From Cyanobacteriota bacterium (GTDB lineage Bacteria; Cyanobacteriota; Cyanobacteriia; CACIAM-69d): DNA of 64,000 nt. The notes beneath the pieces were generated by a model. That model worked only from the letters and a program-made list of their open reading frames with translations, searched no databases and was not told the DNA's origin. Below are positions 53,200 to 54,470 of this stretch, one piece after another. A program made the position numbers and the translations under genes. The stretch spans positions 372,001-436,000 of the forward strand of contig JAKRSF010000008.1 in assembly GCA_022402445.1 (NCBI GenBank), read 5' to 3'. Each line of letters begins with the position of its first letter. The first letter of the stretch is position 1.

Positions 53200-53892
53200 T
53201 CAAAGCCCTTCCCCCTCATCCTCCGGGTCCATCTCGCAGATCACATAGCCACAGCGGTGTTCCCCCTCCACAATCCAGTGGGTGCGCTCCACCGTGCAGT
53301 CCGCCAGGGCGATCGCGAGCATCTCCAACTCATGGTCACACACCTTCGGGAACGACTCCGCCACCGTCGAAATGGCGCAATTGTGCTCCGTCAGCATAAT
53401 GTGCTCCACCCCAGGGCGATCGCTCTCCGTCGCCTCCGGTGCGATCGCCGCCCACTCCGCCATATACCCCTCCGCCCGCCGCAGCTCCACCAGCCGCGCC
53501 ACCCGCTCCTGCACCGGCCCCTCCCCAATGCGCTGGCGATACTCCAGCCCCCGCCGCACCCACTGGGCCCGCAGAATCGACGACACCCCCTCATGGCCCA
53601 CCTGCTCGACCAGCGTATCGAGCAACTCCAGGGCAAAGTCGTCATAGCTGTCAGGAAACTGCGATCGCCCCGCCGTACTCAACCGGTAGCGATGCTGGGG
53701 CCGCCCCATCCCCCCCCGCACCACCTCCAGGGCAATCAACCCCTCCGCCTCCAGATCCTTTAAATGGCGGCGCGTCGCCTGGGGACTAATGCCCAACACC
53801 CGCGCCAAAAGCTGGGCCGTCGCCTCCCCTTCCTTCATCAAAAGGCGCAAAATATCGTACTTCGTCGAAGCCTGCTGGAGGGGCATCATCAC
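53200..53892 (-). CDS. sufR: Iron-sulfur-responsive repressor SufR
   Basis: SufR is a DeoR-like [4Fe-4S] regulator that represses the sufBCDS operon in cyanobacteria. The 230-residue protein has a winged helix at about 10-75 (YDILRLLMKEGEATAQLLAR, ATRRHLKDLEAEGLIALE and GGMGRPQHRYRLSTAG). C-terminal cysteines occur at 172 (TEHNCAIS), 185 (KVCDHE), 199, 214 (HRCGY) and 219. The 13-residue spacing of the first pair fits the Synechocystis protein. The gene is divergent from the ftrC-sufBCDS cluster, with two SufR boxes in the shared 224-bp region. Confidence 0.93.
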   Translation of the reverse strand: MMMPLQQASTKYDILRLLMKEGEATAQLLARVLGISPQATRRHLKDLEAEGLIALEVVRGGMGRPQHRYRLSTAGRSQFPDSYDDFALELLDTLVEQVGHEGVSSILRAQWVRRGLEYRQRIGEGPVQERVARLVELRRAEGYMAEWAAIAPEATESDRPGVEHIMLTEHNCAISTVAESFPKVCDHELEMLAIALADCTVERTHWIVEGEHRCGYVICEMDPEDEGEGL

Positions 53893-54014
53893 ACCGGGGA
53901 ATCACACTGAGGGCTTAACGGCGTTCGGCAAGCAAGATACGATGCTAAGGGTCGCTTGGGGCCTTGGCGATCGCCCACGCCCTGCGACGAAACATTGACC
54001 GCTTGCAACTTTGA

Positions 54015-54028
54015 CAACCTCACCGTTG
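54015..54028. promoter_or_regulatory. SufR box 1 (CAAC-N6-GTTG)
   Basis: CAACCTCACCGTTG is a perfect CAAC-N6-GTTG inverted repeat, the SufR site described upstream of sufB in Synechocystis. It lies 102 bp before ftrC and 122 bp before sufR. Confidence 0.8.
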
Positions 54029-54054
54029 CTAAAGTACTCTAAAGAGACGAAAAG

Positions 54055-54068
54055 CAACAGTACGGTTG
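54055..54068. promoter_or_regulatory. SufR box 2 (CAAC-N6-GTTG)
   Basis: CAACAGTACGGTTG is a second perfect CAAC-N6-GTTG repeat, exactly 40 bases from the first, so about four helical turns apart. Two boxes are also found in Synechocystis. It is 48 bp before ftrC. Confidence 0.8.
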
Positions 54069-54116
54069 TTTTAGCTAGTCCTAGACATTATACAAACTAG
54101 ACAGGCAACCCGCAGA

Positions 54117-54470
54117 ATGGATAATTCCCAAACCCAAGCCACGGACAAGAGTTTAGAAGCCATGCGCAAATTCGCGGAAACCTACGCGAAGCGCACCGGT
54201 ACCTACTTCTGTGTGGATCCGGGGGTTACGGCCGTCGTGATCGAAGGCTTGGCGAAGCATAAGGATGACCTGGGGTCGCCCCTGTGCCCCTGCCGCCACT
54301 ATGAAGATAAGGAGGCGGAGGTGGCCTCAGCCTTTTGGAATTGTCCCTGTGTGCCCATGCGCGAGCGCCATGAGTGCCACTGCATGTTGTTCCTGACGGA
54401 GGATAACGAATTCCGCAGCGATCGCCAGGACATCAGCTTCGATGAAATTCGCAGTGTGACGGGCGGTTAG
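54117..54470 (+). CDS. ftrC: Ferredoxin-thioredoxin reductase catalytic subunit
   Basis: FtrC (beta subunit) carries a [4Fe-4S] cluster and an active disulfide and passes electrons from ferredoxin to thioredoxin in light. The 117-residue protein has cysteines at 32 (YFCVDPG), 57 and 59 (PLCPCRHY), 76 and 78 (WNCPCVPMRE), and 87 and 89 (HECHCMLFL). The C-P-C-x16-C-P-C-x8-C-H-C pattern is exact. It lies between the SufR boxes and sufB, 152 bp upstream of sufB, an interesting position for an Fe-S protein. Control by SufR is inferred. Confidence 0.95.
   Translation: MDNSQTQATDKSLEAMRKFAETYAKRTGTYFCVDPGVTAVVIEGLAKHKDDLGSPLCPCRHYEDKEAEVASAFWNCPCVPMRERHECHCMLFLTEDNEFRSDRQDISFDEIRSVTGG

Follow-up and report, generated by a model that had tools for sequence, protein, structure and literature searches.

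Gene organization and predicted SufR operators

The window, by which we mean the whole 64-kb stretch of DNA that was analyzed, carries sufR on the minus strand and, diverging from it, ftrC and the sufBCDS genes. The placement of ftrC ahead of sufBCDS, given in a preliminary description of this DNA, was confirmed, with all of them on the plus strand. The genes and the two predicted operators are as follows.

53200..53889, minus strand: sufR, iron–sulfur cluster biogenesis repressor (TIGR02702, SufR_cyano)
54015..54028, unstranded: predicted distal SufR operator, CAACCTCACCGTTG (perfect CAAC-N6-GTTG match and phylogenetic footprint)
54055..54068, unstranded: predicted proximal SufR operator, CAACAGTACGGTTG (perfect match and phylogenetic footprint)
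54117..54470, plus strand: ftrC, ferredoxin–thioredoxin reductase catalytic chain (PF02943; CPC/CPC/CHC cysteines)
54623..56059, plus strand: sufB (TIGR01980)
56227..57015, plus strand: sufC (TIGR01978)
57016..58437, plus strand: sufD (TIGR01981)
58656..59918, plus strand: sufS (TIGR01979)

SufR was assigned by an equivalog model (TIGR02702, 295.3 bits against a curated cut-off of 178.8) and is the single match in the genome; a PDB sequence search at E 0.001 gave no match. Its ORF opens at GTG 53892, and further ATG codons follow at 53889 and 53886; any of the three may be the start, and 53889 is used here. Numbered from 53889, the window protein contains Cys171, Cys184, Cys198, and Cys213. 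According to published work, the C-terminal cysteines of SufR are cluster ligands. FtrC scored 149.1 bits with Pfam FeThRed_B (PF02943, cut-off 22) and matches the solved homologue 1dj7 and the chloroplast chain. Its residues C57, C59, C76, C78, C87, and C89 are invariant in 16 sequences, and their pattern, CPC-x16-CPC-x8-CHC, is what we take to be the motif of the ferredoxin–thioredoxin reductase (FTR) catalytic chain. One copy of ftrC was found in the genome, and a search for a second copy found none. The gene for the partner variable chain, ftrV (PF02941, 101.3 bits), lies on another contig (C7). SufB, SufC, SufD, and SufS each scored above the curated cut-off. Downstream of sufR, a conserved ORF of 86 amino acids occupies positions 52800–53060 of the minus strand and adjoins sufR in several relatives too. 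Pfam and NCBIfam searches with it gave no match, and it may correspond to a suf neighbour that the accessible part of PMC13421787 mentions as uncharacterised.

The divergent sufR/ftrC region had been described as holding two perfect CAAC-N6-GTTG repeats 40 bases apart, both closer to ftrC and both of the kind known from Synechocystis. All of this held on inspection. The distal and proximal sites are the sole perfect matches across the 64-kb window, and they lie 40 bases apart from start to start, with 26 bases between them. From the end of the distal site to the ftrC ATG is 88 bp, and from its beginning to the sufR start is ~125 bp; for the proximal site, these distances are 48 bp and ~165 bp. 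Both sites are therefore nearer to ftrC. The SufR–sufBCDS system of Synechocystis PCC 6803 was reportedly the subject of work by Wang in 2004 and Shen in 2007. As far as the available portions of PMC13421787 and PMC4755962 go, the published SufR site of that strain is CAAC-N6-GTTG and its target is sufBCDS.

By composition alone, two matches in 64 kb would be unremarkable (19 of 100 shuffles), and the 4.08-Mb genome holds 34 CAAC-N6-GTTG sites against 37 for the backwards control, which is the chance level. For the 228-bp sufR–ftrC gap, 0.0019 sites are expected at genome density, and the occurrence of at least two has P ~1.8e-6. When flanks learned from relatives were added, the whole genome had no match to the extended motif RRCAAC-N6-GTTGYTNNA apart from these two (backwards control, 1). 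The footprint over 48 loci reads ACTTTGACAAC-N6-GTTGcTAAAgTA..cTA at the distal site and CAAC-N6-GTTGtTTTA at the proximal site. Anatomy and conservation thus support the assignment of the two sites as putative SufR-type operators on a promoter reading into ftrC, the proximal one probably lying within the ftrC 5′ leader. A wider SufR regulon in this genome was considered and rejected, as the extended motif matches these two sites alone. Nine other genomes gave extra matches to the extended motif; judged by the longest ORFs, the ten loci inspected did not indicate a common gene, and there are at least five further matches.

Promoters and continuity between ftrC and sufB

Two sets of genomes were used for comparison. 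The named set consists of the closest 80 FtrC loci of 564, and the panel of 149 genomes with sufB (151 were examined, and L239 and L240, which had no sufB match, were dropped); some panel members were drawn from sufB rows among the matches listed (of 213). The sets overlap (G045 = L083 and G294 = L113), so that their counts are not additive. Intergenic distances were taken from matched ends and may be a few bases off. Loci with ftrC before sufB are called linked. The promoter elements and the intergenic region considered here are listed below.

54011..54016, plus strand: predicted −35 element TTGACA of the ftrC–suf promoter; it shares its final two bases with the start of the distal site
54035..54040, plus strand: predicted −10 element TACTCT (TANNNT), after an 18-nt spacer
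54087..54092, minus strand: candidate sufR −10 element TATAAT (ATTATA on the plus strand), 18 nt from the proximal site
54471..54622, plus strand: ftrC–sufB gap, 152 bp, 73% GC

Transcription from the ftrC–suf promoter would start near 54047. The automatic promoter scan omits TTGACA-18-TACTCT, in which TACTCT has three of the six bases of TATAAT and falls under the cut-off; the one match of the scan in this stretch, at 54098, is at chance frequency. Because the scan did not list it, the promoter assignment rests on conservation. Among linked site pairs, TTGACA with at most one mismatch keeps this offset in 46 of the 50 named and all 16 from the panel, and TTGACA and TANNNT together are in register with the distal site in 44 of the 50 and all 16. 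Of the 60 pairs from unlinked genomes, 43 show the same register. The promoter register is kept with or without ftrC behind it, and therefore ftrC stands behind the ordinary suf promoter; the same promoter seems to serve either order, with ftrC first or with sufB first.

The two sites need not have the same role. Only one of them may be the real ftrC–suf operator, with the other serving sufR autoregulation, or the pair may act as a cooperative or looped complex. The −35 element of ftrC overlaps the distal site. In the window, the candidate sufR −10 element is 18 nt from the proximal site, and in 36 of the 50 named and 12 of the 16 panel linked pairs a sufR-strand TATAAT comes within 12 nt of that site. 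Several families, as well as the GAAAC-type genomes described below, have a single site. These observations favor a division of roles or a joint complex. Against it, the sufR-strand TATAAT occurs within 12 nt in none of the 60 unlinked pairs, and the spacing of the sites is narrow: 37–42 bp in 48 of 66 linked named loci (exactly 40 in 30) and, in the panel, mostly 38–43 bp in linked and 40 or 45 bp in unlinked genomes. The narrow spacing suggests that the pair acts together. We regard the alternative of unequal roles or of a complex as a serious possibility, if one of less than even probability.

Alternatively, the conserved block could work at the RNA level, as an element of the ftrC leader, and not as a pair of DNA operators. 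According to the part available of a 2009 screen (PMC2662882), such an element was predicted in this gap in three cyanobacteria as two stem–loops 17 nt apart, and the window stretch does fold better than 200 shuffles (z −3.8). However, any sequence with a palindrome in duplicate should fold well, the best fold of the window has one site paired to the other and not two hairpins, and the distal palindrome, which overlaps the −35 element, would be upstream of the predicted transcript. The RNA element was rejected as the main reading of the gap and is considered very improbable.

Between ftrC and sufB, a terminator and an internal promoter were looked for, and neither was found. The preliminary description had named a strong terminator at this position as evidence against coupling; the scan detected no terminator-like site on the plus strand of the gap. 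The 152 bp contain no TANNNT, and no unusual structure was seen in them (z −0.08 versus shuffles). On these features, ftrC–sufB looks like one unit.

Distribution of the ftrC–suf linkage

In the named set (the closest 80 of 564), 66 of 80 loci are linked, with ftrC 15–206 bp before sufB on the same strand, and a divergent sufR is present in all 66. A perfect site was found in 60 of these 66; five of the other six carry GAAAC-N6-GTTTC, and one carries two one-mismatch sites 40 bp apart. In the panel, of which 20 loci were chosen for having ftrC, 43 of 149 genomes are linked, and they fall into ten of 29 families (1, 2, 4, 5, 8, 9, 14, 19, 23, and 29). In the other 106 of the 149, ftrC was not found before sufB. 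Among the linked genomes outside family 19 (f19), all 19 have a site and 17 have at least two; among the unlinked genomes, a site is present upstream of sufB in 102 of 106 and at least two sites in 60. In those sufR–sufB gaps of family f7 that hold both sites, the spacing is in most cases 45 bp and not ~40 bp.

No perfect site was found upstream of the 74 unlinked ftrC genes, 60 of which were searched within 500 bp and 14 within 400 bp; the 60 include one additional copy from a genome that also has a linked ftrC. As ~0.3 would be expected by chance, this is an absence of the site and not a depletion. SufR sites at ftrC thus appear to go with the ftrC–suf linkage, an association that is new here, and membership in the operon appears to be what brings ftrC under SufR control. 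For PCC 7942, the accessible part of a review (PMC13421787, FEMS Microbiol Rev 2026) states that ftrC is co-transcribed with suf and that SufR is implicated in ftrC regulation. If control follows operon membership, these claims are not transferable to lineages with a separate ftrC, such as those of the Anabaena, Rivularia, and Acaryochloris loci.

The same distribution raises the question of whether ftrC is a passenger that lies behind the SufR promoter by position alone, uses mainly elements of its own, and is linked without regulatory purpose. The patchy occurrence of the linkage in the panel and the SufR sites before sufB in nearly all unlinked genomes favor this explanation, and four genomes retain SufR and the site without ftrC. 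On a SufR tree of 71 of the 142 rows (at most five per family), from which the direction of change, gain or loss, is not readable, the linkage label needs at least seven changes, although well-supported branches force one. On the other hand, the linkage and the promoter–site register are kept over many distant lineages, a second promoter element was not seen in the window, and the ftrC–sufB distance is 12–39 bp (by matched ends) in all 24 linked f19 genomes. A mere passenger role is, in our judgment, improbable. SufR control of ftrC through the shared promoter is the reading followed below.

A proposed recoded SufR site in picocyanobacteria

Family f19 is probably that of Synechococcus, Cyanobium, and Prochlorococcus, judging from the absence of ftrC in part of it and from five named loci with the same site. 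CAAC-N6-GTTG is missing from the gap in all 24 linked f19 genomes, and a single GAAAC-N6-GTTTC is present there in each of them (gaps L238, L244–L263, L018, L025, and L031), in 20 cases in the longer CGAAAC form. GAAAC-N6-GTTTC was found in none of the 125 gaps of other families. The named loci of f19 type, including those of Synechococcus sp. TMED19 and Cyanobium sp. FACHB-13342, carry it in five of five cases. In genome-wide searches, 21 of the 24 linked genomes had one or two copies of CGAAAC-N6-GTTTCG and three had none; the backwards control gave 0 in 19, 1 in four, and 6 in one.

SufR (TIGR02702) was found in four of the 22 ftrC-less f19 genomes, each of which has one CGAAAC site, located between sufR and sufB. 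None of the 18 SufR-less f19 genomes has the CGAAAC form, a result that also speaks against the RNA element considered above. Because the backwards control likewise gave 1 or 2 in four of the 22 genomes, three of them site-bearing, the position of the site and not its count is informative in this group. Overall, 25 of the 28 f19 genomes with SufR and 0 of the 18 without it carry the CGAAAC form, a comparison that ignores shared ancestry and in which the SufR-less genomes are close kin. The 18 genomes that have neither ftrC nor SufR, a joint loss, are taken to be Prochlorococcus. Prochlorococcus is described as having no ftrC and ftrV in the available part of PMC3441193.

The SufR proteins of the two groups differ as well. 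In the recognition helix, all 29 f19-type rows have V at residue 36 and R at residue 44; in the other rows, residue 36 is P in 145 of 172 and residue 44 is K in 171 of 172. There are further differences in the wing, at positions 61 and 68. Since some CAAC-type rows do not have P at residue 36, this residue cannot be the sole determinant. The four cysteines are kept in 29 of 29 f19-type and 171–172 of 172 other rows (some genomes are counted twice).

The second palindrome in the linked f19 genomes lies directly before the start of a sigma factor gene. The product was above the cut-off of TIGR02997 (RpoD/SigA family) in three of three cases tested; "Group 2" is our own reading of its class, and the model gives the RpoD/SigA family. 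The palindrome precedes this gene in 19 of the 24 genomes. Fifteen have the perfect CGAAAC form, 12 of them in L324–L327 (G302, G268, G312, and G174), L329, L332–L334, L339, and L342–L344, and three in G237, G360, and G362 (L415–L417); an example is L334:1501-2490. Several of the contigs end inside the gene, so that only its start was matched. Four more genomes (G286, G223, G219, and G137; L377–L380) have the relaxed GAAAC-N6-GTTTC at the orthologue. G187 has a degenerate copy at the sigma factor gene and a second perfect site inside a probable ftsZ (assigned by eye). No palindrome was found at the sigma factor matches examined in G264, G346, G270, and G272, nor at close sigma paralogues of the same genomes where these were examined (L399–L404). 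From the shared palindrome, we infer that SufR may bind at the sigma factor gene.

Here, we propose that SufR and its operator were recoded together in Synechococcus, Cyanobium, and Prochlorococcus, the site changing from RRCAAC-N6-GTTGYY to ACGAAAC-N6-GTTTCGT and the protein by P36V and K44R and, in the wing, M61P and Y68W. SufR would also have gained the gene of an RpoD/SigA-family sigma factor, so that iron–sulfur status would control FTR, the SUF machinery, and the sigma factor, and loss of SufR would have gone together with loss of the sites. Judged from these sequence comparisons, the proposal is rather more probable than its contrary. Neither the GAAAC-type site nor a link of SufR to a sigma factor was found among the matches listed in the literature searched, which covered sources other than the RegPrecise SufR entry and the original SufR papers; the RegPrecise paper makes no mention of SufR. 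The predicted site and sigma factor target thus appear to be new here. If the proposal is true, iron–sulfur status would reach further into picocyanobacterial transcription than has been assumed, and the two SufR versions would form a natural pair in which to examine a change of DNA code by a winged-helix repressor.

Proposed mechanism and comparison with known systems

We consider it highly probable that the sufR–ftrC gap of the window is a two-operator SufR switch that represses ftrC–sufBCDS as one unit. When clusters are sufficient, cluster-bearing SufR dimers would occupy the distal site, overlapping the −35 element of the ftrC–sufBCDS promoter, and also the proximal site, just past the ftrC–suf start and on the side of the sufR promoter. 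Occupation of both sites would repress transcription in both directions. When clusters are scarce or damaged, SufR would be released, and ftrC and the SUF machinery would be made from one promoter. The cluster dependence of binding and repression is carried over from published SufR work, and a single transcript through ftrC and sufB, as well as any physiological benefit, is likewise presumed. The switch rests on the sites, their non-chance placement and ~40-bp spacing, the embedded promoter, the gene order, and the lack of a detectable terminator.

Some points weigh against this switch. At 152 bp, the ftrC–sufB gap is longer than is usual within an operon and may contain a promoter of some other type, and the production of more of an iron–sulfur client enzyme during cluster scarcity is physiologically odd. 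In Trichodesmium, whose ftrC may or may not be linked, FTR goes up with iron while sufRBCDS goes down, according to the part of the source available. Were SufR to derepress its targets on iron shortage, cells would make FtrC, an iron–sulfur enzyme in its own right, at a time of cluster scarcity. Such synthesis might replace damaged FTR, supply reductant for cluster assembly, or be a side effect of position.

The preliminary description had suggested that SufR couples iron–sulfur assembly to the ferredoxin–thioredoxin system. The operator anatomy, the conservation of the promoter, and the PCC 7942 precedent, as far as the accessible text reports it, speak for this coupling in the window; as a rule for cyanobacteria it did not stand, since ftrC was not found before sufB in most of the panel. 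The idea itself is sound and, by the available part of the same source, already published, and the window represents a further lineage with the PCC 7942-type order. The window itself adds little that is new, and the comparison adds precision.

With Synechocystis PCC 6803, as described in the accessible parts of the papers above, the window shares the divergent sufR, the CAAC-N6-GTTG operators, sufBCDS downstream, and the SufR cysteines; unlike the arrangement in that strain, in which sufBCDS is the target, ftrC stands between the operators and sufB. An ftrC commonly near sufBCDS is mentioned in the portion available of PMC13421787, and that of PMC2662882 (2009) describes ftrC as inserted between sufR and sufB in Synechococcus 6301. 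The order sufR–ftrC–sufBCDS is thus, on these partial sources, common to the window and Synechococcus elongatus PCC 7942/6301, but the window belongs to a different lineage and has a 152-bp ftrC–sufB gap. The f19 picocyanobacteria resemble the window in gene order, in the four SufR cysteines, and in having a palindrome with an N6 spacer in the gap. They differ in their (C)GAAAC half-site in place of CAAC, in the single site in the gap, and in the second site at the sigma factor gene in 19 of 24 genomes.
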